A stretch of 64,000 nucleotides of DNA, taken from the NCBI GenBank assembly GCA_958298945.1, contig OY282606.1, positions 24,959,740 to 25,023,739 of the forward strand. Reading direction: 5' to 3'. The position numbers were made by a program, and so were the translations under genes. Positions 5,126 to 47,200 of the stretch are shown here, piece by piece. The notes under the pieces are model-generated. The model was given only the letters and a program-made list of their open reading frames with translations. It was not told where the DNA came from and searched no databases. Numbering within the stretch: the first letter of the stretch is position 1; every line of letters begins with the position of its first letter. The stretch comes from Atherix ibis (Eukaryota; Arthropoda; Insecta; Diptera; Athericidae).

Positions 5126-6890
5126 CTTATCATGTTTGCACTGGGAGCTGTGATGACAGTATTGAAATGATGATGATATTTTCTTTATGTTGTAATAATA
5201 GATTGTATGGAAGAAAAATAAAATTCAACAATTTTGAGACGTTCTTGAACTGAGTATGAAGACATAAAATATTAAAAACAAAAAATTTCAAAAATAAAAA
5301 AGTTATTGTATATGCATTTTAAAGCAGTAAGTTCAAGTTGGCCCATCCTTGGACTGACATATTTGGGAAGGTTTTAAGCAGAGGGTTTGGAAGGGGCAGT
5401 AGTTGGGTTACACAATAGTGGGAGTCCTATTCAAAAAGATGTGAGACATAAAGTTGAATATTACAGGAATAGCATAGATGAGGAAGTTGATTTCCAAAAA
5501 CAAAATCATGTGTAAGTGCGGTGTGCTAGACCCGAATTTTATAAGGTTTTTCTGCCCAGCATTTTGGAATGGTTTTCGGAGCAGATTGTATTTTCGATGT
5601 TTGTCCAAATGGATGACAAAATATTTTTCACCGTTGGTCCAGACTAAGTTTGTCTACGAATTGTCAAATATGTTATATGCCATTTGGTAAGTAGATGGCA
5701 GCAAATTCGGAATTTAAATGAGCACAGGACCTTTCCTTATCATTTAGGTCGGCCCGAAAATTGATTAGATCTCTTATCACCAAGGATACCAAAGACAACT
5801 CCTTATTCCCGTTGATAGGCACCCAATCCCTGAGAACCTGGCCATCTGAAGAGCCATGAATAAATTCCAACGCTGCGAAACTTTCACTTAAAATTTATAT
5901 AATGCGATTTTTATTCCATAGATACAAGCTGGATGACTGCAAAGAATATTATGTTAACATTAACAGCTTTGCCTATGAGCATAACCGTTGAATCGCCCAA
6001 TGCATTAACCAATTTTAGGAAGAGAAAAGCTTTCCCAACCATATTGATCCTGCAATTTTCTCATTCTAATTTTCACCATTTTTTTATTTTTTTACCTACA
6101 ATCGATTGATTATTTCCATCGTTTTAAAATTCTCAAATTAAAGTATTTTCTTATTTTGAGCTCTTTCGAATTAAAGATACCAGTTTCTATGCCATATTTA
6201 TAGCTTGAAAAAATCTATAAACTTAAATAAAAATTAAAAGTACGTAATCATTAAGTTTTCTTATCTTAAAATGATCAAGACGACTTCAAAATTGTCATTA
6301 TATACTCCAAAGGTGAATAACCCCAACAAAGGTACATATAAACTATTAAATTGTCATTAATATGCAATTCGAAAATAAAAAAATAAAAAACACTCACGGT
6401 TACGTTGCAATTCAATTGTTTGGTTTTTATTTTTATTTTTCAATAAAAATTTAAATAATATTACATGACAAAAAAAAGATTATCCATCTTATAGTTAAAA
6501 TTTAACGAAAGTTATTAGATCTGAAAGTTAGTGGTTGGTTATCCAATTCGTATGGAATGATCAGTTTTTATGGATGGCCAACCAAAGTTGTTCATTAAAA
6601 AATCATGTAGTCTAGAGGCTGCTCGGAAATTGTACAATTCTGCAATCGCTCGTATTAAAATCAATCGAAAATTTCCTCATAATCATTTTTTATATAATAA
6701 TTTTTTACCTTATTTTTTTATAGTATTTTTTTTCTTATAATTAACATCAAAGTTTTTTTTTTACTTCATTAGTTGGAGTAATTATATCTAGGGAACAAAA
6801 AAATATATTTTTTACTTTGAAATAAAAAAAAAATTAAATTATTAGATCACGAAATGTGGTGTAATAATTGATTTCATCTTAATAGTAAAT
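5126..6890. other. AT-rich DNA with weak unidentified open frames
   Basis: The stretch 5340-5880 is less AT-rich than its surroundings and is open for 60-70 codons on both strands, but I recognise no motif. It may be an eroded transposon. 5880-6890 is low-complexity AT sequence. Confidence 0.3.
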
Positions 6891-6896
6891 TACATA

Positions 6897-7374
6897 CGTG
6901 GTCTGTTCAAAAAGTATCGCGAATTTTGAATTTCCGCGGCTTACGTATATTCGATTTACGATTTTTTGTGGCGTTATGTCGGAACTCATGTCTCTTTTTT
7001 TTCGGTCTTGGCTCGTGCAGCAGCTTTCATTGGGATGATTGAGCTTTGGTTTCCACGTCATAACCATAAACCCATGATTCGTCACCAGTTATGACCCTGT
7101 AGAGCAAATTTGGGTCATCGTGGACAGAGTCCAACAGCTCCTTAGCAATGTTAATGCGATGCTGTTTTTGGTCGAAATTGAGCAAGAATCAAAGAAGAGG
7201 AAAAAACCCGTAGGCAAGCAAAGGAGCTGTCAAAAATTAACTGAACATTCAAAATGGCCGAACTTTTCGGCATAAGTGAGAGACATGAGTACCAACATAA
7301 CGCCACAAAAAAAAATCGAAAATCAAATATACGTAGCCCGCGGAAATTCAAAATTCGCGATACTTTTTGAACTT
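6897..7374. mobile_element. DD34D mariner derivative with two 5'-type ends
   Basis: The left end (CGTGGTCTGTTCAAAAAG after TA) and the right end (complementary ATACTTTTTGAAC) are both copies of the 5' end of the DD34D mariner family, so the ends form an inverted repeat of well over 100 bp. The interior, read on the minus strand, keeps only the region around the first catalytic Asp (TGDESWVYGYD, about 7070-7110) and LLDSVHDDPNL. At about 480 bp it is a strongly deleted, non-autonomous copy. The last few bases of the right end are lost. Confidence 0.85.
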
Positions 7375-9057: not shown

Positions 9058-9170
9058 AAAACCGCGGCCGGAAGATCAAATTCAATATTTAATAAAAGAT
9101 AATAAAGAGAAGAGACCACAAAAAGCGCATGTGAATCTCATATTTTTCAAACAATTACGGTCACTAATGA
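9058..9170 (+). CDS. Pmp70: Pmp70 exon: basic cytosolic linker before TM1
   Basis: Begins one base into a codon after TTATTATAG and encodes [20 protein letters not shown]... to ...FFKQLRSLM. It corresponds to the charged stretch after the N-terminal peroxisome-targeting segment of ABCD3. It is the most 5' exon I can identify. Confidence 0.9.
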
Positions 9171-12100
9171 GTGAGTATCTTTCTTTAGTTTATTTAATTT
9201 TAAATCTATTTAAATATATTATTTAGAAGTTAACTTTTGTAATAGAAAAATAAATTTTACTCAAATATAGTTTTTGTGGTTACTACGCTCGTATTTGATT
9301 TATTAATAACAGAAATAAAATTTTTATTATAGTGGATGATTTTTTAAAAGTTTGGTTTTCAAATTTTTTTAAATAATAACAACAGAAAAATTGCAAAAGT
9401 ATATAAAAATTTTATTTGAATCGATAAATCAATGATTGCCATTTACTTTTTAAAGATTACTTTATGTAAATGTTAACCACGACAGCATTTTCAGTGATCC
9501 AATTTTTTGAGCATTTCGAATAAGGCTGCAAATTTATCTATTTTTTTACACCATAAAAAATACTCTTGAGGCCGAAACGTGAGATAAATTGCTCACCGAA
9601 CACATCTCTCAATATGTTCATTGTTTCACGTGTTGTGTAGCATTTAACGCCGTTTTGTTGCAACCACATGTCGACCAGATGCATTTCTTGAATTTTGGGC
9701 AAAAAAAAGGTCAAAATCATCGAGCAATGGCGAGCGCCATTGACGGTAACGTTGCGGCCAGAGTCATTTTTAAAGAATGACAAACAGTGCATTTTTTTGA
9801 GTGCAATGGCAGTTCCTTTTTTTTGCCTGTGGTTGTCCATCAGAACAAATGCGACAATTTTGCTTATTCACATACCCATTTAACCAGAAATGCCCTCCGT
9901 CGCTGAACGTAATTTTTTGGCAAAAAAAAACGGATTTTCCTCAAGTTGTTCTAACTTTTTGGCAGATCATCATTCTGTTTCAGTTCTTGTATGAGATGTA
10001 TTTTATACGCTGTTCAGACCAAGATCCTTGAGTACAATTTTCCACAAAGTTGACGAACACAATCCCAATTGCTGTGAGCGGCGACGAAAGGACAAATTGC
10101 GGTCTTTACCATACTGGACGCTATAACAGCAATATTTTCCTCTGTACGCACACGGGTTGGTGGTTTGATGTCCAATAGCGTCAAATTGCTGCGAAATTTC
10201 GTTACTATGGCTTGAATTGCTTGCTCAGTAGATCGATTATGACGACCATAAAATGATGGACGTGCGTGGAACACAATTTTCGCAGAGCACCAATTTTTGA
10301 TAATAAAATTCAATAATTTGTGAGTCTTTCTATTATGAAATAGCAACACTAACCTTAGATTATAGAAGAACTGGATAGGCCTCTACACAAAAATTCTTTC
10401 CAAATTTTTTAGAGAATCAAAATGCATACGAACGGACACATTTGCAAAATGGCCTATCACGAAATATTTTATATTCTGAATTAAAAACTTCCAATTTACT
10501 GTCGTGAAGAATAAAACTATTTATGCAAATGTATTAATTTATACTGACTTGTTTGTAAATTGACTTCGCGATAAGTTTTTAAATGTAAACAAAAGTACGC
10601 AAGCACTTCGGTATGCTACCACTTTCATGGAGAATGGCGTGTTTTAAAACTCTCCAAATACGATAGGGTTTCCGAATAAGATTGATATGATTTCTTAAAA
10701 AAAAACACACTAATTGTTAAGGAAATTCAAATGTTTTTTATTTAATATGAAGTACAATTGATACAATTAATTTCTGAATAAAACGTCATTCAAATGGCCT
10801 CCACGACTTCTTTTACAGGAACGAATTCGATGAACCCAATTTTCGAGCACTTCTTCCACTAAATCAAATCGTATGTCATGAATAGCACGTTCAGTATTGA
10901 CTTCTAAAGCTTGAAGAGAGTCTGGTTTATTGCTAAATACTAATGATTTCAAATAACCCCACAAGAAATAGTCTAATGGTGTTAAATTACAACTTCTTGG
11001 AGGCCATTGAATGTCACAATTTCTTGAAATAATCGAATCTCCAAACTTTTCTCGCAATAATTCGGTTGTTGCACGTGCTGTGTGGCACGTAGCCCCGTCC
11101 TGTTGGAACAAGATGTTGTCAAGATGAACTTCATCCAATTTCGGCCATAAAAAGTTGGTTATCATCGATCTATACCGCTCTCCATTGACAGTAACGGTGT
11201 TACCAGCTTCATTTCGAAAGAAGTACGGACCGATGATTCCACCAGACCGATGATTCCACCAGACCAAAAACCACACCAAACTGTCAATTTAGGTGAATGT
11301 AATGGGTGTTCATGAATAATTTGTGGATTTTCTTCGCACCAGAATCGACAGTTTTGTTTATTTACCGCACCACTCAGATGAAAGTGAGCGCACGAAAAGT
11401 TGCAATTGGAGAACGATTATTTTGATAATAAAATTGAATAATTTGTAAACGTTGTTCTTGCGTATATCTCTCCATGATGAAATTGTAAACATTACTGAAT
11501 ACAATGGAGAAAAAAAGACCGATCATGACATATTACAAATGGCCGAAACGTCACTTAGAAATCATATATAAAATAAGTAATAAACCTAAGATACAATTAC
11601 ATTTAATACCAAATAATTTTGCCTTCCGTCGTGTTTAAATTATATTTTTCTTTGGAATAATTCAGTTAAAAGGGATATTAATTATGCTTTTGAAATTCAA
11701 TAAATTAGATGTCAGTGGGTGTCATGTCTACATTAAAAAAATCTACACAAAAGTATGCAAGCAATACGATTTCTCGCCGCTTTTGAAATAAATTTTTTAA
11801 CTGAACAATTTTGACTTTTACTTATGTCATGTGTCACGTATGATCTGTCAAAAACAAAAATATGAAAAACTAAACAGTAAAAAATCACCACATTTTAGTT
11901 CTGCTGATTTAAAAAGGTTTTTTATTTCATAAAGATTAGAAAATTAAAACTAGTTTCCATTGAACCATTATTGAAATCACCTAAAACTGTTATGAATTTT
12001 TTCTTAGAAATTCTAATTCCTGGTGTATGGAGTGTGGAAACAGCACTGTTAGCGTTGGTCGCGTCCATGCTTGTAGCACGATCGATCAGCGACATCTGGA

Positions 12101-15100
12101 TGATACAAAATGCAACTGTTGTTGAGAGCACAATAATAACAATGAATAAAAAGGATTTCAAATCGTCGTTAGTCAAATATTTAGCAGCACTTCCAATGGT
12201 AAGTAATTATTTATTTTCTTCTCAAAATTCGTTATCAATATTTTGCTAAATTCAAATTATTTTAATCCAATTCCTTTTTAAAAACCACAACGGAACATTT
12301 CGATAATAAAACTTATCAATTTCGCAGATATCCGTTGTTACCAATATATTAAAATGGAGTTTAGGCGAATTAAAACTAAGATTTAGGACTAATTTGACAC
12401 ATCACCTATACAATCAGTACCTGAAGTAATTATATATATTAACAACTAAAAAAAATATATATATTTTAATTTCTAGAGTTTGTGAATCTTACTGAGTAAT
12501 TTTTAATAAATTGCTGAAAAAAATTAAAAAATATTCTAGATCACAAAAATCTATAAATTATTGAAATTAAAATTTGTGAAATTTTTTTTAAAGAGTAACC
12601 AAAAAAAACACTAATTAAATAATTAATTTTAGAGGTTTTACATATTATAAAATGTCAAATCTAGACAATCGGATAGCAAATGCAGATCAGCTATTAACAA
12701 CGGATATTGATAAATTCTGCGAAAGTGTTACCGATCTATATTCGAATATTAGTAAACCAGTTTTAGATATATTCATCTATGTTTATAGGCTGACTATGAA
12801 TTTGGGCGGAAAGGTGAGTTTAAAAACCGACGGAATTTATTATATTTATCATTTGATTTATGTCATATTTTCTTATTTTCAAAATAATTCATGTTTTTTT
12901 GTTGTTATAAATATTTGCATTTGAAAAATTAGTTTCACTTTATTTGCAATAAAAAAAAGGAGTTGTTTTTTTTTCATTTCAAGGATGTTTATTTTTTTTA
13001 AAAAAAGAAGAATTTTACAAAAACTTATTAAACATGATCTTCTCTACCATAACCAATCTCGTCTGTCATGTAACGTTCGACTCTTGTAACGTTCGACTAA
13101 CCATTTCTGCCATATTTTATATAATTACCATTTACCCCAAATTTCTTTTTCAATAGGACTCCCTACTTCTCCTCTACGGTAACCAATATCGTCTGTCCAT
13201 TAAAATTTAACCGCTTCACAACTACCAGTGATATAAGCTTAAATCCGCTGTTTGGTCATAGATGGCGTGAGTAAGCGTATTAAGCTACCATGGGCACGCA
13301 ATACTTTTTTTTTATGAGTTTGACATCTGTCAACATTAATCAGTACACATTGTCAGCAATTTCGTACAACAACATACAATTTTCTTTTGATAATCATATC
13401 TAGATTTGTGCCAGAAAAAGAGCATTGCGGGAAGCTCTGCCTGTCTTCTTCAATTTGAAGAAATCGGCTGCCAAATCGCATCGAATGCTTATGGAGGCCT
13501 ATGGTGACACTGCTTTATCGGGAGCAACGTGCCGAGATTGGTTTCGTCGGTTCAAAGACGGCAATTTTGACTTGTAGGACAAGAAGCGTGAAAATCGCCC
13601 TAGGCGTTTTGAGGACCATCAGGCTCTTTTGGACGAAGACGATACCCAATCGCAAAAAATGCTCGCGGAGCAATTAGGTGTTACTCAACCAGCCATTTCC
13701 ATGCGTCTGCGTGCCATGGGGAAGATTGAAAAAATCGGAAAATGGGTGCCGCATGAATTGAACGATAGGCAGATGGAGCGACGCGAAAACACATGCGAAA
13801 TTTTGCTCGCCAGACAAAAAAGAAAGTCGGTCCTGCATCGGATTGTGACAGGCGATGAAAAGTGGATATATTTCGAGAATTCTAAATGTAAGAAATCTTG
13901 GGTTGATCCCTGTCAACCATCAACATCTTCCCCAAGACCAAATCGCTTCGAACGGACGACGATGCTGTGCGTTTGGTGGGATCAGCAGGGTATCGTCTAC
14001 TATGAGATGATGAAACCTGGTGAAACTGTCAATGCCCACCACTACCACCAACAACTGATCAAATTGCACCGTGCTCTGCATGAAAAAAGGACGGATTATC
14101 AACAAAAGACATGACAAGCTGATTTTCCTCCACGACAACGCACCATCGCACACGTCAAAAATGGTCCGAAAGTACTTGGAGACACTCAACTGGGAGGTGC
14201 TACCCCACCCCGCTTATTCACCAGACCTGGCCCCTTCCAACTACCACCTGTTTTCGTCGATGGGCCATGGGCTCGCTGTGGAAGACTTCGAATCTTACGA
14301 AAACATCCGAAAATTGCTTGATAAGTGGTTTGCCTCGAAAGAGAAGGAATTTTTTTGGCGTGGTATCCACAAATTACCCGAGAGATGGGAAATAATGTGT
14401 AGCTATCGAGGCCAAGTACTTTGAATAAATTTATTTTTTCTTTCTATGAAAAGAACATGGTTTTTGACAAAAACATCGGATTTAAGCTTATACACCTGGT
14501 AACTATCAATCAGTTTTGGTAGATCAGCTAGCAATGACGACCCGTACCTAACACGAAATCGCCAAATGGCCTTATCGTCGTGGCGCTGCAGAATGACCTC
14601 TGGCTTTTGTCTCAGATACCTTACATAGAACTAAACAACACAACTCACGATACCAAAAGTTTAGAAACCAAATTCCGAGTGTTTAGAAACTTGTGCTCAA
14701 ATAATTTGCTAAAAAAAATTTTCCAGACACCAATTTCGAATGGCATTAAAATTTCAGTAATTTTTTTTTTTTTTTGTCAAATTGAAATTAAGTAAATTAT
14801 AAATTCTTTTTTTTTTTTTTTGATTCCATTAAAATTACTTACATTTTACCCTCTGCCAAACAGTTTGTTCACCTTTCTGCGACTTGACGCATGTGGATGC
14901 AAATTTTCCTACTTAAAAGCCAAAGTCAACTTATTGTCACGGTTGTGTGAGAATAAATTATTTTTAAATTTTCATAGCAAACCGGGTTAAAAAGTGTACG
15001 TTTAAATTACTTTTCTCAGACAGCCTAGAAAAAAACCAACTATTTAAAATTATAGCAAAAACAGAATATAAAATTGTTCTACTAAAAATAATGCAATACA

Positions 15101-20599: not shown

Positions 20600-21124
20600 G
20601 TTAAACTCTTAGATTGAAGAATACCTGGATAGGCCCATACGTCAGATTTTCTGTCTGAATTATTGCAAAAGCGGCAAGAAATTGTACTGCGTGCATATAT
20701 TTGTGTAGATTTTTTTATGTAGACACTTGAGACGCACTGACATCTAGTTTTCCTAATAGAAATTTATTGAATTGCAAATGCATAATAAATATTCATTTTA
20801 ATTAATTTATTCCAAAGTAAAATAAAATTTAAACACAACGACAGCCAATTTTTATTTTTTGTACAATCTTTTTGAATTGTATTTTACGTTTATTATTATT
20901 TATTTCCTAAATAACAATCAAATATCAATTGCCTCCATTTTGCAGACTTTCGGAAAGTTTTAAAACACACCATTCTCCATGAAGTGGTAGCATACTGAAA
21001 CGCTTACATACTTTTTTTTTTTTTTTTAAATTACAATAGATTAAAGAATACCTGGGATATGCCCATGCGTCAGATTTTCGTATATGTAGACGCAATTTTC
21101 TGTCCGAATTATTGCAAAAGTAGA

Positions 21125-21196
21125 CTTTCGGAGAGTTTTAAAATACGCCTTTCGGAGAGTTTTAAAATACGCCTTTCGGAGAGTTTTAAAATACGC
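21125..21196 (+). repeat. Three tandem 24-bp units inside copy 2
   Basis: Three consecutive copies of CTTTCGGAGAGTTTTAAAAT plus ACGC, identical to one another, so the expansion is recent. The same motif occurs once in the other copies (for example about 43275). Confidence 0.93.
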
Positions 21197-21745
21197 CAGT
21201 TTTGGAACTGGCGCTCACTTAACACATCTTCTCCATTAACATCGGATAATTTTTTTCTTGCTTGAACAGCATTTTTATCTTTTCTATAGTAAAAAAAAGT
21301 AAAATATGCCGAAAATGCTGTTTTTCACTTTCCATATTTAAAAGTGTATCAACCAAAAACTACTGTGCAGAATCAATCGAATCTTTTCAGAAGCAAGCTT
21401 TGCTATGTCTGCTGTCAAAATACATATGATTATGCGGCTTAAGTGTGAAGTTGGTTGTGAAAAAATACAATGAAGTCCTCTGTTGGGAAAAAACGAACAA
21501 TCCAATATTTCTCATTTTATCAATTTCCGGACATACCAATATTTCTCATTTTATTAATAGTGGCCACTTTAATAATTTAATTAATTCCATAATTCAACAG
21601 TACTTACGCATCCGCTGGTACTATATATCGCGCTTCATGTCTCGACAACCCATCTGACCGTAGTTTTTATAATAGAGTAGTTTTATTTAAACACGCGTTA
21701 AATGTTCATATTCTATTTTCGTATCTTCTTTTCTTATTAGTAATA

Positions 21746-22631
21746 TGAGGTCTGTTCAAAAAGTATCGCGAATTTTGAATTTCCACAGGTTACGTATATT
21801 CAATTTTCGATTTTTTGTGGCGTAATGTTGGTACTCATATCTCTCACTTATGCCGACAAGTTCGGCCATTTTGAATGTTCAGTTAATTTTTGACAGCTGG
21901 TTTGCTTGCACGTGTTTTGGCTCGTCTTCGATTTTTGTACGTTCCAAAAAATCTGTTTGGGGAACAAGAAAAAGTCACAGGGATGTGTGGCATTTTTAGT
22001 GTGTTGTTTTTGGCCAAAACTTCGCGCACAAGCAACGATGCGTGAGCAGAGGCAAAAGTTATGGTGCAAAAGTCAATTTTTGTTCTTTCACAAATCCGGG
22101 TATTTCTGACGGATTGCTTCGCGCAACTTGCGCATATCTTGCAGGTAATATTTCTTATTGACCGTTCTACCCTGTGGCAAGAACTCATGAAGCACCACGC
22201 CCCTACAATCGATGAAAACTGTAAGCAAAACCTTCACATTTGACAGAACTTGGAGCGCTTTTTTCGGTCTTGGCTCGTGCGGCAGCTTCCATTGAGATGA
22301 TTGACCTTTGGTTTCACGTCATAACCATAAACCCATGATTCGTCACCAGTTATGACCCTCTGGGGTCATAACCATAAACCCATTTAGGTCGTCGGGAACA
22401 GAGCCTCGTTAATGCGATGTTGTTTTTGGTCGAAAATGGGCAAGAATCAAAGAGGCAAAACACGTGCAAGCAAAGCAGCTGTCAAAAATTAACTGAACAT
22501 TCAAAATGGCCGAACTTGTCGGCATAATTGAGAAACATTAGTACCAACATAACGCCAAAAAAAAAATCAAAAATCGAATATACGTAACCCGCGGAAATTA
22601 AAAATTCGCGATACTTTTCGAACAGACCTCG
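21746..22631 (-). mobile_element. DD34D mariner, 5'-5' rearranged, nested in copy 2
   Basis: TA at 21744-21745 and 22632-22633. Both ends are 5' type. The interior, on the minus strand, includes VEGFAYSFHRL-like and [16 protein letters not shown] pieces and LLVREVLAKNNTLKMPHIP. The inverted junction (AAATCTGTTTGGGGAACAAG, about 21948) corresponds to the shared 5'-5' junction. A 31-base local duplication around GGTCATAACCATAAACCCAT (22330-22382) adds to the damage. Confidence 0.85.
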
Positions 22632-22939
22632 TATTCGGCGCTTGCTTCTCTATTCATATTATATTTTTTACGACGATATTTCTTCGTACCATCTCACTTT
22701 TAATTTTTCTTCTAAATGCAAAACTAATTATTTTTTTAATATTGTGTAAAATAAATAAAATGAAAAATAATAAACAAAATCGCACAAACCGAAATTTAAA
22801 ATTGGCCCCCAATGATTTACGCCGTTTCTGTTATTTTGCATTTGTGTGCGCTCTTACGAATATATTGCCAACAAAATTCGGACACAATTTTTGTGAAGAG
22901 GAGGCCTATCCCAGTTCTTCTATAATCTAAGGTTAAACT

Positions 22940-25180: not shown

Positions 25181-25186
25181 TTATAT

Positions 25187-26083
25187 AGGGTTTTCGAATA
25201 ATAGTGATATGATTTCTTTAAAAAAAAAACACACACTAATTGTTAAGGAAATGCAAATGTTTTTTATTTAATGTGAAGTTTAATCGATACAATTAAGTTC
25301 TGAATAAAACGTCATTCAAATGGCCTCCACGACTTTTTTGCCGGAAAGAATTCGATGAACCCAATTTTCGAGCACTTTTTCCACTAAATCAAGTCGTATG
25401 TCATGAATAGCACGATCAATATTGACTTCTTAAGCTTGAAGAGAGTCTGGTTTATTGCTTAAGACCAATGACTTCAAATAATCCCACAAGAAATAGTCTA
25501 ATGGTGTTAAATCAGTACTTCTTGGAGGTCATTCAATGTCACAATTTCTTGAAATAATCGAATCTCCAAACTTTTCTCGCAATAATTCGGTTATTGCACG
25601 TGCTGTGTGGCACGTGGCCCCGTCTTGTTGGAACCACATGTTGTCAAGATCAACTTCTTCCATATTCGGCCATAAAAAGTTGGTTATCATCGATCTATAC
25701 CGCTCTCCATTGACAGTAACGGTGTTACCAGCTTCATTTCGAAAGAAGTACGGACCGATGACTCCACCAGACCAAAAGCCCCACCCAACTGTCAATTTAG
25801 GTGAATGTAATGGGTGTTCATGAATAATTTGTGGATTTTCTTCGCACCAGAATCGACAGTTTTGTTTATTTACCGTCGCAAAAGCGCACGAAAAGTTGCA
25901 ATTAGAGAACGAATATTTTGATAATAAAATTGAATAATTTGTAAACGTTGTTCTTGCGTATATCTCTCCATAATGAAATTGTAAACATTTCTGAATACAA
26001 TGGAAAAAAAATGACAGATCATGACATATAACAAATGGCCGAAACGTCACTTAGAAATCATATCACTCTTATTGGAAAACCCT
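25187..26083 (-). mobile_element. DD41D mariner, internally deleted, with both ends
   Basis: Inverted ends AGGGTTTTCGAATAATAGTG (left) and the complement of AGGGTTTTCCAATAAGAGTG (right), with TATA on each flank. The minus-strand transposase keeps [37 protein letters not shown] and the C-terminal [13 protein letters not shown] end. A stop/frameshift lies between 25440 and 25530. As in the copy at 10.7 kb, the first 30 codons are fused to [13 protein letters not shown], removing the DNA-binding domain and the first Asp. About 0.9 kb instead of more than 1.2 kb. Confidence 0.9.
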
Positions 26084-28498: not shown

Positions 28499-29218
28499 TT
28501 ACGCAGCCGTATCGACTTCTTCGACAATATGATTTGGAGAAACGTCGTTAGGTGATGCTAGCGGTGCAATGGTTGTGGCTGTTGCAGCAGCTGCTGTTGC
28601 TGCACTGCCACCTGATGGCGTGCCGGCCGGTGTTGGACTCGTAGTGCTGAGGACACGTGCACCATACGGAGCTCCCTTCATTTTACGAGCTTCGCGTCGC
28701 TGCTTGCTCTGCTGCATGACGAGACGTATATGGTCCAGTTTGCATTTGGTTTTGTTGTTCTCGATCTCGACGCTGCACTTGCTGCAGATGCTTTTGTCTT
28801 GAGTGTTCGACTCATCGAAACTGGATTTGGTTGTGTTCATTGCTGTTGGTGGTGGTGGTGGTGCTATCACCAAGTTTCGGAAACTGCAGGTGCAAGAGCT
28901 GCGATCGTCCATTATTGAACTCATAACTGCTGATGAAGTGCCTGTTGTGGGTGATGAAATGTCCATCGCCGATGCGATTTTGTGGGCGGAAAGAGAATGA
29001 TCACGACAAGAGCACGCGTTTGGTGTTGGTATTGAATGCAATTCGCCACAGTGTCGAGCGCACACTACCGCTGACGGATCGGAAACAGATGCTGACGAAC
29101 TTCCACCAGTTAACGAGCTACTAACCCCATAGCGGCTACCACAATCACCGTACGTACAAGAACTAGCCTTAATACATTTGCTGCACGACTCATGTACTGG
29201 TACACTTTTACTAGATGC
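28499..29218 (-). CDS. stx: stx last coding exon: proteasome-binding C-terminal helix
   Basis: Acceptor TTTTAG at 29219-29224, then [15 protein letters not shown]; the frame stays open to TAA at 28499-28501. It holds a Cys-rich stretch ([19 protein letters not shown]), the basic amphipathic helix [20 protein letters not shown], known in midnolin to bind the proteasome, and an Ala/Thr-rich tail ending EEVDTAA. Confidence 0.92.
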   Translation of the reverse strand, partial: ASSKSVPVHESCSKCIKASSCTYGDCGSRYGVSSSLTGGSSSASVSDPSAVVCARHCGELHSIPTPNACSCRDHSLSAHKIASAMDISSPTTGTSSAVMSSIMDDRSSCTCSFRNLVIAPPPPPTAMNTTKSSFDESNTQDKSICSKCSVEIENNKTKCKLDHIRLVMQQSKQRREARKMKGAPYGARVLSTTSPTPAGTPSGGSAATAAAATATTIAPLASPNDVSPNHIVEEVDTAA

Positions 29219-32200
29219 CTAAAATTAAAAAAAAAAAAAAAAAAAATTACAATTTAGTCCTCTCGTTTTATTTTTATTGTAAAATAATTTTTTTTGTTAA
29301 TATTTTTTTATTTTAAAAAATTATTTGAAAAAAAAATATTCAATTTGGATACTACTACTAAACTTAACTCTCTGTCAAAGAGCATTTTCTCATCATCTCA
29401 AGATCAATTGGCCGAAGATGAGCATTTTTACCGAAAAATCATCTTTTCGGATGAGGGCCATTTCCAACTCGGTGGGTATGTCATGTCAACAAAGAAAATT
29501 GTCGCATCTGGGGCTCAGAAAATCCATACGTCACCATGGAAAAGCCGATGCATCCACAACGAGTCACGGTTTGATGCGGATTTTGGACTGGAGGCATCAT
29601 TGGCCCGTTTTTCTTCGAAAACGATGAAGGAGCCGTCGTTTCTGTCAATGGTGAGCGCTATCATGGCATGCTCAATGAATTTTTGTTTCCAAAAGTTGAA
29701 GAGAATGGCATGGACGACATTTGGTTTCAACAGGACGGGGTCACTTGCCACACAGGCAACGTAACAATCCAACTTTTGGGCACTGCTTTCGAAAACCGAA
29801 CAATCAGCCGAAAATCTGATGTTAATTGGCCGCCTCGGAGCTGTGATTTGAGCCCGTTGGATTATTTTCTGTGGGGAGCCATTAAAGATAAATGCTACGC
29901 AAGCCATCCAGAGACAATTGAGGCCTTGAAACACGAAATCCAACAGGCACAGACAATCGAAAATATACTGAAAAATTGGGTCGAGCGAATGGGGTACTGT
30001 AAGGCCAGCCGTGGCAGTCATTTAAATGATGTTGCGTTTCATTCTTAAATTTCAAGGTTCAATTTTTTTAATAAAACCGGAAATTTATTTATTTTTTAAA
30101 ATGCAACTTTTAAATGGTTCAACCTTTTTGTACAAGCTACCAAAAAAAAAATTAATGCAAAAAAAAAACGATTAAAAATTGGATTAAAAATTCAAAATTG
30201 TATTTTTTTTTTTTTGGTCGAAACAAACTTAAATAAATTTGTTTCAAAATAAATTGCTAGAAATTGAACTTGATTTACTATCATGACTTGAATAATTATG
30301 GGAAAAATAAATTTAAAACTGAAACTGACAGGGAACGACATCTGATCCCGCCGCACCCAATCTGATCTTCACCTTCATTATTGCAGGGGGGAAAAAACCC
30401 AAATTTGCAAAAACAGAAAAATTCGTAAAATTAATTATTGCTAACTAACACGTTGTTATCGTTTGAATAAATTTAAAGTTTTAGTCGGAAAAATGAATAT
30501 TCAATAAATAATCATCGTGCTAATTGGTACGAAAATAAAGAGAAACTAACCTGTTTGGAGCTTCGATGACTGCCAGGCGTTTCGAAGCTTATTCTCGCTC
30601 CTCGACTGTATTGAGGAGTCGCACTAAGTAAATCGTTCAATATATGGATGATTGTTGAGATATCACGTTTGGGTCGGCCATAACGGTCCTGGAGTGCCGG
30701 ATTCAATGTGCCGGAAAATGTACCCGAATAAATGCCTTTGCCATGATTCTTCATAGATTCAATGACGGCGCCGCAACCACTTTTACGTGGCGCTTCTTCT
30801 GCGAGATCAACTTTGCTGGTGAACACCTCCTTGGATAGTTTTCGAAGTGTTTGTGTGAGATTTCGTGAAGCCTCTGCCAAAGCTCGACTGTCGGTAGCGC
30901 TTATTGTCGAAACGGAATCGCTGATATCACAAAAAGATTCGGCGACAGCATCCGATGATGACGCGACAGACGTTGATGTGTTCGATGAGGTCACACCTTC
31001 AGGTGACTCTGTGTGGGAGCGATGTTTTTCGGTGCTTACACTTTTGCGAAAGATGTTATTAGGAAAATGATGATGATTGTGGTGGTAGTGGCGATGTTTG
31101 GATTTGCCAATAGGATTGTTGGCAGTTTTATGTAGAAACGACGAACTGCTGGCATATTTAACGTTCGGTGTGCTTGTCGAAATAGGTGGCTTTTCGACAC
31201 TAGTCGGTGTTCCTGCAACATCCTGATGCGCCTGGCATTGATTTGTCTCACAGCTACTGTTGCTGTCCAGACGTTTACAAAGACAAGACGTCAACTTGGC
31301 TGAAATCGGATCCGGACAAATGTTTAGATTGGATTCTGTGGCACCAGCCACCGGTACCGGTGTCACTGGTGTGCCGGTTGCAGGCGTCACATTACTATTA
31401 TTTGCTACGTCAGATGTTGCGATCGGAATGTTACTAATCGAACTGGTAGTTATAGGACCTGATACCAAATTCGACAGCGACTTAATGGGCGATTGTTCCA
31501 GCAACGTGTCACCGTTGAACGTTGAATTGTTCAAGCTATCCGAGGAGCAACAGCTGCTCGTCGAATTCCTAGACTCCTCTGATAACGGCGAACTGCAGTG
31601 GCTATTGCTACTAGTTGTGGTAGTACAGGTGTTGATGTTACCACTGTGACAACCGTTAATTTGCTGTTGACCCACCGCTAAACTTTTCACTATATTCTGA
31701 AGACTCTCATAATCTTGTTTACTCATGAACGTATTTAGATCACTAGCTACTGATGGCCGCAACACGTTGGCGATAGATGCTCCTGAAGGTATAGATGGTG
31801 TTGTGCTGCTGGACTGGTTTGGCAATGATGGTGTTGCAGCAGTTGGAAAAAGTGTACTGCTGCCAATACTGGCATCGTTGCCAACCGCTAAATTCCCAAC
31901 CGCTAAATTAGCCCCAACTCCATTGGCAATTCCTTTTTGAAGAACTATGTGCGGTAATGCGTGTCCGCCCGACAACGATAAACGAGCGGAGTTATCTAAG
32001 CCTATCGAGTTGTTATTATGATGATGATGGTGGTGATGGTGATGGTGATGGTGGTGATAGTGACGACTGCTTGCATGACCCTCTAACTCAGCCTTTTTAC
32101 TTGTAGAGCTCTGTAAGTTCGCTGGGCATACGCCCAGTCCAGATGCGGTTGTACCCCCTCCAACATTCGAAGACCGATTTCTATTGCTGGATCGAGATCT

Positions 32201-35200
32201 GGAACTGCCGTGCGATGGACTCGTTGGATTTACTGTGCTCAATTGCAATTGTATCAACATCATATGATCACCCAGTCGCATACTTAAATTTAATGGAGTC
32301 TTGCCACTGAGAAAATCGTTCACTTGCGAATCATTCAATGATTCCAGAGCTTGCATCACAGTATTTTCTGGACGTTGTGCCTGTAAGTAAATAAAATAAA
32401 ACACAAAAAAAATTAGTTATAATTTGTTAATAATTCTATATAAGAAATCTTTATAATATTGTTGTTGTTGTTTTTAAGGTCCCTTAGACGTGTGCCAGAG
32501 GCCACTTTATAGCGCCACGACCGCGTAGCCATTTTTGGCGAATTCATAGTACGTATGGGGGAAGCTATCTAAAAGAGACTGGTCTGTGGTTTGTATTATA
32601 GAATATTGAGAATTTTGTTTTATTTTGTGGAGCAGATTAGTATGTTTAAATAGGGAACTAGGGAATGGTGTTGTTGGGTCCAGGGCTCCATAATGGGAGG
32701 AATCCTGCTCGCGAAGTAATTCTTGGTTAAGTGGTATTCATATAGAATGTGGATGATAGTGAAATGGGTACCACAGGATTGGCATAAGGGACGATTGGTG
32801 TTACCAAAAAGGAATTTTTGTCCAATCCGGATTCTGAGGAGCATCTATTTTGGTATAGATGTTGAATAGACTGGTTTATTGGTGGTTATCCAATGAGTCG
32901 ACAAAAGTGTATCGCTGTTCGTCCAGTCATCACGCCTACGGATGGCTAATGGTGTTACTTGCCATTCTGTTAGTAGACGAGGCAGATTGGAAATGGCTGT
33001 GATCACTGGTCGACGGTCGTGTTTATCCAGCCAACTTGTCAGCACTTTCATTGCCCACAATTCCCACATGCCCCGGCGCTTATTGCAACTTGACACTCCT
33101 ATTGCTTAGTAGACTATGACGAATTTCGCTAAGAACTGGATCACTCGATGGGCTACAAATGGCTTTAAGGGCACTAAAAATAATAACGCTCCGTTGGCTG
33201 GAAATATTGGTCGCAATTTCCATTGCCGTTTTGATGGCCCACAACTCCCCGTAATATGGAACTATCCCTATAAAGTGCTGCAGCCAAAAAGTTCGATGAT
33301 CGAAAAAGATGTAGTATCGGTGTCAGCAACGGCATCCGTGAACAACAGTCGATGATCCTTTAATCCATCCAACTGTTCAAGAAAAAGTTTTCTATAAGTG
33401 GACGGATCAGTACTAGCCTTCTTAAACCTGTGAAGAAAAGCAGTCACTTTTAACTTTACCAGGTGTATAAGCTTAAATCCGCTGTTATGTCATAGATGGC
33501 GTGAGTGAGCGTATTAAGCTACTACGAGCACGTCATACTTTTATATGAGTTTGACATCTGTCAACATTAATCAGTGCACATTGTCAGCAATTTCGTACAA
33601 CAACATACATTTTTCCTTTGGTAATCATGTCCAGTTTTGTGCCAGAAAAAGAGCATATGCGGGAAGCTCTGCTTTTCTGCTTCAATTTGAAGAAATCGGC
33701 TGCCGAATCGCATCGAATACTTATGGAGGCCTATGGTGACAGTGCTTTATCGGAAACAACGTGTCGAGATTGGTTTCTTCGGTTCAAAGATGGCAATTTT
33801 GACTTGAGGGACAAGAAGCGTGAAAATCGACCTAGGAAGGTTGAGGACCATCAATTGAAGGCTCTTTTGGACGAAGACGATATCCAATCGCAAAAAATGC
33901 TCGCGGAGCAATTGGATATTACTCAACTAGCCATTTCCATGCGTGTCATGGGGAAGATTGGAAAGATCGGAAAATGGATGCCGCATGAATTGAACGATAG
34001 GCAGATAGAGCGACGCCAAAACACATGCGAAATCTTGTTCGCCAGATAAAAAAGAAAGTCGTTCCAGCATCGGATTGTGACAGGCGATGAATAGCTGATA
34101 TATTTCGAGAATCCTAAACGCAAGAAATCGTAGGTTGATCCCTTCCAACCATCAACATCTTCCCCAAGACCAAATCGCTTCGGACGGAAGACGATGCTGT
34201 GCGTTTGGTGGGATCAGCAGGGTATCGATGTTGAAACCTGGTGAACACAGGTGCTCTGCGTGAAAAAAGGACGGATTATCAACAAAGTCATGACAACCTG
34301 ATTTTCCTCCACCGCAACACACCATCACACACGTCAAAAATGGTCCGAAACTACTTGGCGACACTTAACTGGGAGGTGCTTCCCCACCCCGCTTATTCAA
34401 CAGACCTGGCCCTTCCGACTACCACCTGTTTTCGTCGATGGGCCACGCGCTCGCTGAGCAGCACTTCGATTCTTACGAAGACGTCCGAAAATGGCTAGAT
34501 GAGTGATTTGCCTCGAAACAGAAGGAATTTTTTTGGCGTGGTATCCACAAATTGACCGAGAAATGGGTTCGGATTTAAGCGTATACACCTGGTACTCCCA
34601 ACCACGGTTTCCAATCTGGGTGTGGAAGGGAAGTTTAAAAACGAGGGGGAGGTGGGGTTGCAGGAATTGCTTTCAAGGTCGGATATTAATAAGGATAGCG
34701 ATGATTAATTCCTTTTTGAACTGGGGGGAGATGCTAATGTTTTTGATTTAAGTGTGGAGGCATAGGTTCTTGTAAAATAAATTTAGACCAGTTTCTATCA
34801 GTAATTCGTTATAATGTTTCATAACTTTTAGGTTATAATTTCGCATCCAAACTATATGAGTACATTTATTTTACTATTTTTCACTACCATTATAAGTAGG
34901 AAAACCGAAATAATGTTGATTGAAAAACAAAGAAAAATTAAGCGAATTGAGCTTTTGATATTTGTTTTTTTTTATTGCATATATTATGTTTGATTATAAA
35001 TAGAAGAGAGAAAAATAAAATAAAAGTAAGAAGACGAGTAGAAGTAGCAGAGAAAAAGAAAAACAATTTTTATAAAAAAAAAACATATAATATATAATAT
35101 TGAAAAGTGAAAGTTTCCTCTTCCTCAGTGAAAACGGGAAAATAGTTTTTTGACAAAAATTTCTGTTAGAAGAAAAAAACCATTTTTTGCTTTATTCGAT

Positions 35201-41200: not shown

Positions 41201-44200
41201 GTAGAAGAAGAAAAATTGGCTTTTGCCATTTTTGGTCAAAAACAACACACTAACAATGCCGCAGCCACCGTATTCTCTAGATCTGCCCCCCTGTGACTTT
41301 TTTTTGTTCCCCAAACTGAAGAGCCCCATTAAAGGACGACGCTACGCTACGATTGAGGAGATAAAGACGGCATCGAAGGAGAAGCTGAACAAGATCACAA
41401 AAAATGATTTTTTGAAGTTCTTCGAGGATTGGAAAAAACGTTGGCACAAGTGTATAATATCTGGTGGGGATTACTTTGAAGGGGACAAAATAGATATTCA
41501 TGAATAAATAATTTTTGAAAAAACACAAAATTCGAGATAATTTTTGAGCAGACCTCGTATAGCCCAGTATATTGGAATAAAAATATTTAATGATAACTTA
41601 AAAGCTTCGTCTATTCAGGAAAAGCATCTTATTTCAGTAATTTTACATTTTATGATTTTTTTTGTGATATTCTCTTTATTGATTAATTGATGACATTTAT
41701 AATTGGTGTACCAAGAATTTCAATAGCCCTTAAAAAAAATCGAATTCTATAAAATTTTCATTTAAATTTTTTAAACATATTTTAAAATATTTCTTTTAAG
41801 CTAAAAAAAATATCTTTTTTTTTGTACACTATGTTGTAAAATGGTAACCAATCTAATTTCGCTCTTACTTGTACTGAAACATATCATGTTCAAGGGTTTT
41901 GCTTGTGTTAACAAAATCTAAATAAATTCAATAAAAAAGCTCTTTGGATTTTCAATATTTTCTTATAAAAATGAATATAAAAATAAAATGTAGACAAGAG
42001 TTGTATGAGTTTCTATGGTAAAATAACAAAACATTTGAACGAATTCTTCTCTATAGAGAAAATTTGTTTGTGCAGTATTTCTAGGTTGCTATAATAAGAT
42101 TAATAAAAAAATAAAAAATAAAAATAGAAAAAGAAAAGAAAACATTATTTGTAATTGATGTAAGAAAAACGTTTCCTTGGTGATTTTATTCGTTTCTTTA
42201 ATTGATTTTTTTTACACACATATTAAAATCCTTGTTAAAATTAAAAAAATATTATTTTATTCTTGAATATCTTCCATGTAAAGGGTTACCCGAACTATTC
42301 TTCGAAAAGTAGAGTTGAATAAAAACACACACTTTAAATTTACATTTTGATGACTCTTTTAAATTTCTACAATGGAGCCACCACATTAAAATCTACCAGG
42401 TCAGTCTAAAAAAAAGTCGATTATCATACGGCCCATAGCGTTCAGAATTGCAGAATTGACGGTTAATGTCTCTTGTTGATTTCCAAAGAAATATGGGCTA
42501 ATAACTTAGATTAACGAATATCTGGATAGGCTCGTACGTCAAATTTTCGTATATGGTATGTATAAGCAATTTTCTGGCCGAATTATTGTAAAAGCGGCGA
42601 GAAATAGTACTGCTTGCATATATTTGTGTAGATTTTTTATGTAGACACATGATACCCACTGACATCTAGTTTTCGTAATAGAAATTTATTATTATTTCTA
42701 TTATGGAAATTTATTGGAAACAAAAATACTAAGGAAAAATGCATAACAGTTTCAGGTGATTTCAATAATGTTAGATGGAAACTATTTAATTTTCTAATTT
42801 TTATGAAAGCAATTAATTTAAAAAAAAAATGTGTTCAAATCAGCAGAACTAAAAAGCGAACAAATAACACGTGATTTTTTTACAGTTTGCTTTTTCATAT
42901 TTTTATTTTTGACAGATCACACGTGACACTTAAAAAAAGTGTCATGTGTGATCTGTCAAAAAAAAAATTATATTCAAGCTCATTTAAAAAAAAAATTATC
43001 TCAAAAGTGGCGAAAAATCGTAATGCTTGCATACTTTTGTGTAGATTTTTTTATGTAGACATGACCCCCACTGACATCTAGTTTCCTTAATAGATGTTGA
43101 TTGAATTGCAAAAGCATAATTTATATTCATTTTAATTCACTTATTGGAAACAAAAATACAATTTAAACACGACAGAAGGCAGTTTTTATTTTTTGTACAA
43201 TCTTCTGATATGAAATGGAATTTCATATGAAATGGTATTTTAGGTTTATTATTTACTTCGCCTCAATTTTGTAGACTTTCGGAGAGTTTTCAACCACGCC
43301 ATTCTCCATGAAAGTGGTAGCATACCGAAATGCTTGCATACTTTTGTTGTTTTTAAAGTTTTTATTTTGGCACTTATCGCAAAGTGTAGTTTTTATCTTT
43401 TTTGACGTATTTACGAAAAAATAATTATTTATATAAATAGTTATATTGTTGATAACATTTAATAGGAAGTTTTTATTTCAGAAAATTAAGGGAAAATGAA
43501 GAAATTAACAAAAATTTAGTTTACAATGTGTTTTAATGGTTTTTAGTGATTTATTTGATCCAAAAAGTGGTTAAAAAGTGAAAAGTTCGTCATTCAATAT
43601 ATGTAAACAAATGTGATGTTGACAGTTCAATGTTTACAAGAAAATAGTTCAGTGCCAGTGTACGTAAAGTGTGTATAAGAAAATTTAAAGGAACAAATTT
43701 GTCCAGTATGTTTTCCATTGCTGTGTTTTCATTGTATTAAAATAAATTAAAGTATATTTGGTAGGCTTATTATTTAAATAAATTTGTTTGCATTTGTGCT
43801 TTCTCTTACTCTATTAGATCATTTTGTAATGCATTTACTAAATAATAATGTTGTCAATTTTTTTTTAGAATATTAGTTGTTAATTATTTAAGTACATTAA
43901 ATTTTCCACCTTGTGTAATTTAGTTTTAAAGCATTTACTGCTATAATGTTGTATACAATTAACTTCGATATTATTAAGAATTTGATGTAATAACATATTC
44001 TATGTAATTAATTTAAAATTTAAATGCATAATGCCTATTTAAAGTACCATTTTAAATTTACAAACACACATTTAAATTTATAAAGAAGTTTTCAATATCT
44101 ACCAATGATTGTTTTAACATTAAAATTTATATTTACCAAGTTGTGGTGTAGTTTTTATTTCAACATAATATCACATTCTCTCTCATTTAATTCATTTTGC

Positions 44201-47200
44201 AAATTTGAAATGGATTTTTATTTGAGCACATAATTGTTTTGATTTAATCAAATATTCTTTTATATGCTTTTCCACTTTATAAATTCTGTTTTAATAAATA
44301 ATATATAGTGAAATAAATCAAATGAAAATATAATAAATAAATTTACTAAAACTAATTCCATCAAACAACAAAATCTGCAATATTTAAAAATATATTTGTT
44401 TACGCATAAATGACATCACACAATATGAAAATGGTTTTAAACGAACCACTTTAATCGTACAAACTGAAATTTAAAATTGGCCCCTACTGATTTACGCCGT
44501 TTCTGTTATTTTGCATGCTCTTACGAATGTATTGCTAAGAAAATTCGGGCACAATTTTAGTGTAGAGGCCAATCCAGTTATTCTATAATCTAAGGCTAAT
44601 AATACCTTTAAACAAAAATGTACGTCAGACAGTCACTTTTTGCCGTCACTTGTGGACTTTAAGAGCCCAATATACGGGAAAGGAGCCCCATCATGAAAGA
44701 AAATCACCACATTTATAGAAAATTTTTACAATATTAACGAGGTTGTTACACCATTCGAAATATGAAATGGAAAATTTCAAATATCAGGGCTATACTTTCC
44801 CATTACATAATTTTTTAAATCTTAAAGACAGTAAATGGAACAAACGAAAAAATTTTTTTTTTAAAAATCAAATTCAAAAATTACCGCGCTATAACTTGAA
44901 TAAAAAAAGAGAAAAATATACTGAACAAATGTGACAAATCAAAATCTTTAAGAAAACGGTATGTATAATAAAAAAAAAACCTAATCTCTTCGATACATAT
45001 AAAAAAATCAAAAAAAAATTTTATACAAAATAATGGAATTCGAAATTAATTTGTTGTGATCGGTAAACTTTTCGATAGAAAAAATAAAACTTTTTGATTA
45101 TGGCGATGATAGGCTGTGATGATGATGATGATTATCAAATGGCATCATGGTGATGGTGATTGATGTATAAAGAAAAAGAATTGCAAAAGAAACTGAAATA
45201 CGGTAAAATCCGTTACTTGTGATTCATATAATAGGCGTAAACGTTGAAAAAAGAGAACACCCGCTATCCTAAGCGGTTTTCTCCTCTCAAATTCGACCAA
45301 CGAACATTCTACTCGCAACAGCGACAAACCGTTTGTTTGTTTGGTAATTTTTGCCACCTTTTGTTCGATCTCTGAAACCAAAAACACTTCGATTAGACAA
45401 TGGGTTAGATTCTAACTCGTAAGTTAAGTTAGTAACTCAGACGATTTTGAGAAAAAAGAAATTTGCCAAACAGAGAAACAAACACAATCGTGATTACTTA
45501 AGTTATTACTGATTGTTAAATGGGATACACTAGTAGTGTGTGGTGAGAAAGTACTATACAACTAGTGAATGCCGATGAGAGATATCCCGACAAGAAGACA
45601 AATTGGATATCTCTCATCGGCGTATCGTGAACGATTCAGCACAGATGGAATAAGAGATGAACAATTTTGAAGGCGTACAGCAACAAAGCCAACTGATCTG
45701 CAATATCTTAACTGATTTGCGGACATTGATTTTTGAAAGCGGCAATGCAGTGCAAGTTTCTCTTGTTTAGGCGTTGGGATTTTTTCAAGTGGCAATACGA
45801 TACACACCTTTCAGGCTGTACCGGTATCACCGCCTTTAATCGCCGTCGCCTTAACATCACCGTAAATGGTTATAATAATATGTCTTTATTGAAATCACGT
45901 ACTCATACTTGTCGAATATTTTAATCTCAAGCTAGTCAATTGACAAGATGATCGACCAGGGGACAATTGGCTACGGCGAAGTAAAATCCAGATCAGGCAA
46001 GGTATACATACTCTCTCAAGCTCCGAGCTCATTTTCAATTTTTCGAAAGGTGTAACACAGCATTTTTGCAATGAAATGTTACCCTTTTTTTTCTTTTAAT
46101 TTTTACTGTTTCAAAGTTTTGTGTACCTTCATCAAGAAGAAGAAAAAAAAACCAGAAACGATTCAATAACGATGCGACCACGCTTTTTAACGGTAATTGA
46201 CTGTATTTTATTTATACCCTTTACTTTTACACTTACTACATAGTTTGTGAATATTTTTCTTTTTCTCCCATAACAATTTTTTTTTTTGAACTAAACTTTT
46301 GGGTTTCAATGTTGTTGTTTTTTTAGGAATGAGAAAATTCTACAAATTTTTTTTCTTTGATAATTGTAAGAGCACAAACAAAAATTTTGATATTTTTCTT
46401 TTCTTTTCTTAAATGTGAATTTGTCCTAGTTTTGAATAATTTGATATTAGCTATTTTAATATTGGTTAATTGAGTAAATTTTTGACAAAATTTTATGTAT
46501 TTGTTATTGAAATGTGATATTTACACTTCTTGTATACGAGGTCTGTTCAAAAAGTATCGCGAATTTTGAATTTCCGCGGGTTACGTACATATATTCAATT
46601 TTCGATTTTTTTTTGCGACGTTATGTTGGTACTCATGTCTCTCACTTATGCCGACAAGTTCGGCCATTTTGAATGTTCAGTTAATTTTTGATAGCTGCTT
46701 TCTTGCACGTGTTCTGGCTCCTCTTCGATTTTTGCCCATTTTCGACCAAAAACAGCATTGCATTAACATTGCTTAGGAGCTGTTGGACTCTGTCCGCGAC
46801 GACCCAAATTGGCTCCAGAGGCTCATAACTGGTGACGAATCATAGGTTTATGGTTATGACGTGGAAAGCAAAGCTCAATCACCCCAATGGAAGCTGCCGC
46901 ACGAGCCAAGACTGAAAAAAGCACGCCAAGTTCGGTCGAATGTGAAAGTTTTGCTTAGTTTTTTTAGATTGCAGGGGCGTGGTGCATCATGAGTTCTTGC
47001 CACAGGGTAGAACGGTCAGTAAGGAATATTACCTGCAAGTTATGCGCAAGTTGCGCGAAGCAATCCGCCAGAAACGCCCGGATTGGTGGAAGAACAAAAA
47101 TTGGATTTTGCACCATGATAACGCCCCTGCTCACGAATCGTTGCTTGTGCGTGAATTTTTGGCCAAAAACAACACACTATTAATGCCGCAGCCACTGTAT

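Follow-up and report, generated by a model that had tools for sequence, protein, structure and literature searches.

The 3' end of an intron of the Pmp70 (ABCD3) gene occurs a second time inside a TIR transposon of a family termed here TE-A, within the same window, the stretch of 64,000 nucleotides of Atherix ibis DNA that was analysed. Very probably the transposon acquired this piece from the Pmp70 intron by a template switch, and the piece then spread locally. Plants supply the best-known cases of gene-fragment capture by TIR transposons, and the Pmp70 case provides a clear and well-preserved animal example of a transposon capturing part of a gene. It is possible to order the steps because the donor, a structure that looks intermediate (a truncated element fused to native intron), captured copies and an exon-bearing locus are all preserved within 371 kb.

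The source of the captured sequence is a phase-1 intron of 2837 bp (9171..12007, plus strand), located between Pmp70 exons at 9058..9170 and 12008..12198 (plus strand). Its donor is GTGAGT at 9171, with the upstream exon ending in A|GTGAGT, and the downstream exon was recognized by PF06472 (E=3.7e-11) and by similarity to relatives. Spliced together, the two exons are translated in one frame as ..FFKQLRSLM-K-ILIPGVW.. (FFKQLRSLMKILIPGVW). Proteins of relatives are similar across the splice border, e.g. ..FFKQLRALLK-IIIPRKW.. (P0071), and of the 250 residues used as query, the best relative, the acalyptrate fly Teleopsis dalmanni, reaches 88%. In read-through products from other records, the sequence changes where the 12008 exon begins; by eye, none of the relatives' read-through sequences showed similarity reaching into the intron (27/28 proteins shown in both cases), these rows marking the start of the exon only. 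Based on the border residues of the relatives and the change at the exon edge, the intron appears to be old, with the AG at 12007 as its expected, predicted acceptor, native to Pmp70.

Local alignment of 11571-12020 with 43258-42716 matched 11571-12007 (plus strand) to 43258-42729 in reverse complement, the latter interval lying in a TE-A element (copy 1). BLAST of 11620-12020 against 43181-42716 gave 74.7% identity including gaps (E=9e-57, within the 64-kb window), and a query with 11892-12040 retrieved copy 1 from the whole 670-Mb assembly at E=7.7e-23. These E-values rule out chance similarity and bear out the first-pass annotation, which had recognized the end of the Pmp70 intron in copy 1 in reverse complement. 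Gaps apart, 101 of 113 aligned bases are identical between Pmp70 and copy 1. The similarity ends exactly at the AG before the exon at 12008, again as had been noticed: directly after the AG, Pmp70 continues with AAATTCTAATTCC (exon) and copy 1 with TATTTTTGTTTCC, a stretch of the transposon that recurs near 43140. Two details had to be adjusted, as the AG boundary in copy 1 lies at 42729 instead of 42726, and the shared stretch, clear but estimated at about 300 bases, begins further upstream at 11571 / 43258. An assembly error that put one locus into the other is practically excluded, given that the compared copies differ at 6-15% of aligned bases, carry indels in addition and have different flanks.

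The shared stretch is composed of three parts. A TE-A fragment reaches to 11794. It is followed by about 97 bases from the end of another dispersed element, MAR2 (11795..11891, plus strand), and by 116 native bases that close the Pmp70 intron and include its pyrimidine tract and AG (11892..12007, plus strand), the part that was captured. From its TA-flanked end, we take MAR2 to be mariner-like. Its end was delimited by genome-wide matches that stop at about this position and was read at 10 loci, one of them inside the Pmp70 cluster. With 11800-12030 as query, 33 of the 40 scored rows (of 653 candidates) were outside the cluster region; most of these stopped near query base 90 and none went past base 121 (~11920). 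For the copy 1-side query, rows outside the region stopped by base 145 of 294, before the AG (40 of 523 candidates scored). As these match ends scatter, the border between MAR2 and the native part is soft by up to about 30 bases.

The native part behaved differently from the MAR2 end. Queries with 42726-42860 and with 11892-12040 each yielded 7 candidates, and all 7 were on C2 between 24,913,226 and 25,283,777. Pooled, the two sets give 8 places, distributed over 6 loci that span 371 kb around Pmp70 in the 670-Mb assembly; the search skips very common words, and absence of a match is no proof of rarity. The six loci are Pmp70 itself, copy 1 and loci at 24.913, 25.161, 25.197 (three tandem units) and 25.284 Mb, the last of which holds about 45 bases of the native part only. 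The segment that copy 2 of TE-A had been said to lack as unique sequence is thus of two kinds: about half of it (11795-11891) is the end of a dispersed element, whereas ~11892-12007 is indeed restricted to the region, and the native part is absent from copy 2.

TE-A is a non-autonomous TIR transposon family that generates 8-bp target duplications. Allowing up to 3 mismatches, its TIR pattern had 2,724 and 2,606 matches in the assembly and 0 for the reversed control, and the TE-A part (11620-11794) was found across the genome, with 3,060 candidates, of which 40 were scored. Among 30 loci sampled from the top of the TIR match list, all on C1, a partner TIR was present within 1.5 kb at 15, of which 6 showed an 8-bp duplication with no or one mismatch (mean of 0.47 and maximum of 4 in 2,000 shuffles). 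The clues to the superfamily are the 8-bp duplications and the TIR CTTAGATTATAGAAG... only.

Both copies in the window that retain their ends are bounded by CTTAGATT... inverted repeats and 8-bp duplications (GCTAATAA for copy 1; GTTAAACT for copy 2). Copy 1 is flanked by GCTAATAA at 42497..42504 on the left and at 44595..44602 on the right (plus strand), and its TIR arms are 42505-42546 and 44553-44594. From left to right, it consists of the left TIR with the left subterminal segment (42505..42728, plus strand), the captured Pmp70 intron end with the AG at 42730-42729 (42729..42874, minus strand), a MAR2 end in the form of a near-palindrome (42875..42993, minus strand) and the rest of the element with a second copy of the subterminal segment, the internal part and the right TIR (42994..44594, plus strand). 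No frame of at least 80 codons was found inside copy 1 or the 24.913-Mb copy. Beside the captured block in copy 1, there are two near-palindromes, at 42670-42709 and 42875-42993, of the type seen in fold-back copying. Copy 2 (20608..22931, plus strand) has GTTAAACT on each side and carries no captured segment. It could be read as a deletion product of a two-segment ancestor, which fits the copies alone but is unneeded, as the native part did not turn up elsewhere in TE-A. Copy 2 also holds a second partial TE-A left end at 21037-21177, followed by short tandem repeats, and judging from this internal left end, template switching may be frequent in the family.

The TE-A remnant in the Pmp70 intron (10354..11794, minus strand) has a right TIR at 10354-10381, is internally deleted and is interrupted by another element at 10663..11567 (no strand assigned). 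This nested element is 91% identical to 25185-26063 and presumably mariner-like; 25532-26050, within its relative, gave no Pfam hit. The remnant has no left TIR, as already described, and a second copy of its target ACACTAAC is likewise absent from 9-16 kb, with a single occurrence at 10346. The loss does not coincide with the start of the native intron, because the MAR2 end lies in between.

Copy 1 and the elements at 24.913 and 25.161 Mb have one common join, TTAG|TATTTTTGTTTCC (L021 reads TTTTAG), where the native part ends with AG and TATTTTTG of TE-A follows. Since the three chimeras share this join, it most likely arose once. The element at 24.913 Mb has a left TIR and has lost the tip of the right one, and at 25.161 Mb the right TIR is present and the left end is shortened. 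A target duplication around the chimera was found in one of the three elements, copy 1, while the flanks at 25.161 Mb (TGATAGAA / AGCTAACC) do not match. The fusion of TE-A and MAR2 seen in Pmp70, TTTTGARATAA..TTTTTT|AACTGAGCAC, recurs with some changes at 25.161 and 25.284 Mb; in copy 1 and at 24.913 Mb it is altered and palindromic. At a further site in the captured sequence, all five copies that cover it read CACCTGAAA and Pmp70 reads CACCTAAAA, which indicates that either Pmp70 changed or the copies descend via one intermediate.

At 25.197 Mb, three tandem units run past the AG position to 12035-12036 and thereby include the first 28-29 bases of the exon; in one unit, 27 of 28 of these bases match Pmp70. 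After the exon start, the units continue with an unrelated genome-wide repeat. One unit keeps the AG and has lost most of the native part, and the other two are without eight bases across the AG. The array (L023 4016-5739; C2:25,197,015-25,198,738) is built from tandem units of roughly 355-380 bp that comprise TE-A, MAR2 end, Pmp70 intron end, exon start and another repeat. It is possible that it represents a young satellite built from a captured gene piece.

The presence of exon sequence outside the gene, together with the failure to find the native part elsewhere in the abundant TE-A family, points to Pmp70 as the donor. With the direction read from an unrooted comparison of sequences, the transposon most likely received the piece from Pmp70. 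Capture was also the reading favoured by the first-pass annotation, and it is upheld by the native part at six loci near Pmp70, one of which carries exon, and by the genome searches, which found thousands of matches to TE-A TIRs genome-wide and the native part around Pmp70 only. The opposite direction would mean that the 116-146 bases belong to a local TE-A subfamily and that insertion and deletion let the transposon supply the branch region, the pyrimidine tract and the AG of the Pmp70 exon. The segment does adjoin TE-A and MAR2 in Pmp70, copy 1 and at 24.913 and 25.161 Mb, as this would predict. However, a splice-site segment exapted from TE-A would occur in the family genome-wide, and it was not found in the rest of this very abundant family. 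Two coincidences would be needed as well, one truncation at an internal junction of the element and another exactly at the exon, and the exon sequence in the 25.197-Mb array implies that Pmp70 was a donor at least once. We therefore regard a splice site supplied by the transposon as improbable. The AG itself was considered as a TE-A terminus and rejected: the TIR begins with CTTAG, and the outer edge of the native part reads CTAAG from outside and is not a TIR.

A local segmental duplication of Pmp70, independent of the transposon, is very improbable, even though all loci lie within 371 kb and the 25.197-Mb array includes exon bases, because the similarity between copy 1 and 24.913 Mb starts exactly at the left TIR, and no adjoining flank sequence is shared over 1.5-2 kb (266 bp on one side of 25.161 Mb). 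Apart from one 60-bp match of 78%, the flank matches involve a repeat that is present many times in the window. As a point against the capture model, trees of TE-A segments, from which matches under 100 or 70 query bases were dropped and which are short and weakly supported, did not group the Pmp70 fragment with the chimeras or unite the left segments of the three chimeras; they offer too little resolution and lend no support to a single-junction origin.

From the junctions, the regional restriction, the exon fragment, the TIRs and the duplication around copy 1, we infer the following order of events, including the template switch and the mode of spread. A TE-A element would first have inserted into the Pmp70 intron. 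Its left end would have been lost at this site, and the broken element would have become joined to a MAR2 end followed by native intron. DNA copying, by template switching in repair or replication, would then have read past the broken left side up to the AG and switched at this point into the left end of another TE-A copy. This would yield a TE-A element bounded by two TIRs and containing part of the Pmp70 intron, and the captured part would subsequently have reached at least three element loci, all no more than 190 kb from Pmp70. As the captured block is contiguous in the Pmp70 intron, a single new join, from the AG into the left end of TE-A, suffices. Microhomology at this join cannot exceed one base (G). 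For a join to fall no more than one base from the exon border would be roughly a 2-in-116 event if any native position is possible, a figure inferred after the fact, and our first choice is that the exact join at the AG is due to chance. Alternatively, the excised Pmp70 intron RNA could have been the template, if repair of a TE-A end jumped to the 3' AG and copied upstream as far as homology with TE-A. We give this route only a slim chance, and the 25.197-Mb copy, which carries exon bases, was not made from the excised intron alone. If it were true, the transposon would have captured the end of an RNA and not chromosomal DNA, and with it a ready-made mobile 3' splice site.

How the captured piece reached the other TE-A loci can be narrowed less far. 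Transposition to 42.5 kb, as had been proposed, is plausible for copy 1, since its intact ends and target duplication mean that the chimera could have jumped; it is unproven because the core is closer to the 24.913-Mb element than the rest of the two elements is. In this core, which comprises the native part, MAR2 and the next segment, 398 of 424 aligned bases are identical, compared to 1309 of 1517 outside (Fisher p=1e-5). Such a difference is consistent with ectopic conversion or gap repair among resident TE-A copies, in which the chimera never transposed, a sub-case compatible with capture that is nearly as probable as its opposite. Along the same lines, the right ends of copy 1 and 24.913 Mb are 85.2% identical, and copy 1 is 84.1% identical to the unrelated full-length match L072; in 43182-43490, several unrelated copies (up to 84-90%) are nearer to copy 1 than the 24.913-Mb element is (77%); and all loci are near Pmp70. 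On the other hand, copy 1 and the 24.913-Mb element are collinear over their whole length and share the derived palindrome, and later conversion by many other TE-A copies would also lower the identity outside the core. Conversion between resident copies and later conversion that eroded the flanks of a jumped chimera thus appear about equally probable.

Among known systems, the Pack-TIR elements come closest, with the difference that the parent gene of the present case itself carries the transposon: a known kind in a setting excluded from the animal survey of Tan et al., 2021 (PMC8277862). As this survey describes them, the Pack-TIRs of animals are TIR transposons with host non-TE sequence, in some cases drawn from introns; captures close to the parent and template switches at short microhomologies are found, and some multicopy cases have target duplications of their own (PMC8277862). 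Copy 1 likewise holds host sequence between two TIRs of one family and has an identifiable parental copy in the Pmp70 intron and exon. In contrast to these Pack-TIRs, the parent intron itself carries TE-A, and the surveyed multicopy cases are far from their parents, whereas the Pmp70 copies stay within 371 kb (PMC8277862). The survey removed parents with TEs within 100 bp, required at least 90% internal identity and states that cases of 'end bypass' may be missed (PMC8277862). The Pmp70 parent abuts MAR2 and TE-A and matches copy 1 at the 101 of 113 aligned bases given above; the case works like a Pack-TIR and yet would fail a filter designed for young, unlinked cases (PMC8277862). It resembles the case that the survey describes as missed, a template-switch capture with the element already linked to the donor, and exemplifies the excluded class of captures from parents that already carry a transposon (PMC8277862).

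According to the same survey, no Pack-TIR was recorded in insect reference genomes, and one family is given for D. melanogaster populations (PMC8277862). Like the chimera described here, the Pack-TIR Ssk-FB4 of D. melanogaster belongs to a fly, occupies several loci with a single chimeric structure and has one tandemly duplicated copy; it differs in comprising nearly a whole gene and in having spread between chromosomes, instead of an intron end that spread locally (PMC8277862). P-element transduction by end bypass is similar in that the sequence taken up directly adjoins the element in the donor locus, but it uses host sequence as a TIR, while the new left end here copies that of TE-A (PMC8277862). 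Among the matches listed from openly licensed papers, we found no report of a capture of the Pmp70 intron end.

Since the copied segment amounts to a complete 3' splice site, any of the copies could act as an exon trap, and the TE-A copies carry what is, by its sequence, a duplicated putative acceptor. Introner elements, transposons that bring a splice site with them, are comparable to the Pmp70 case in this respect. They are unlike it in that no new intron arose in Pmp70, where the intron appears to be old, and in that the splice site copied here lies inside the element and not at its edge. A motif scan for an upstream exon of a gene containing copy 1 gave 6 matches, none of them convincing.

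In the same window, long coding stretches are present at 28502-32416 on the minus strand, the same strand as the copied acceptor, which sits upstream of them; they resemble midnolin/stuxnet and gave no Pfam hit. Three copies of a further element, which we take to be mariner-like, are located at 834-1970, 13223-14505 and 33444-34567, are about 87-92% alike in their matching pieces and contain long transposase-like frames. A very abundant dispersed repeat at 6823-7372 has many other copies in the 64 kb.
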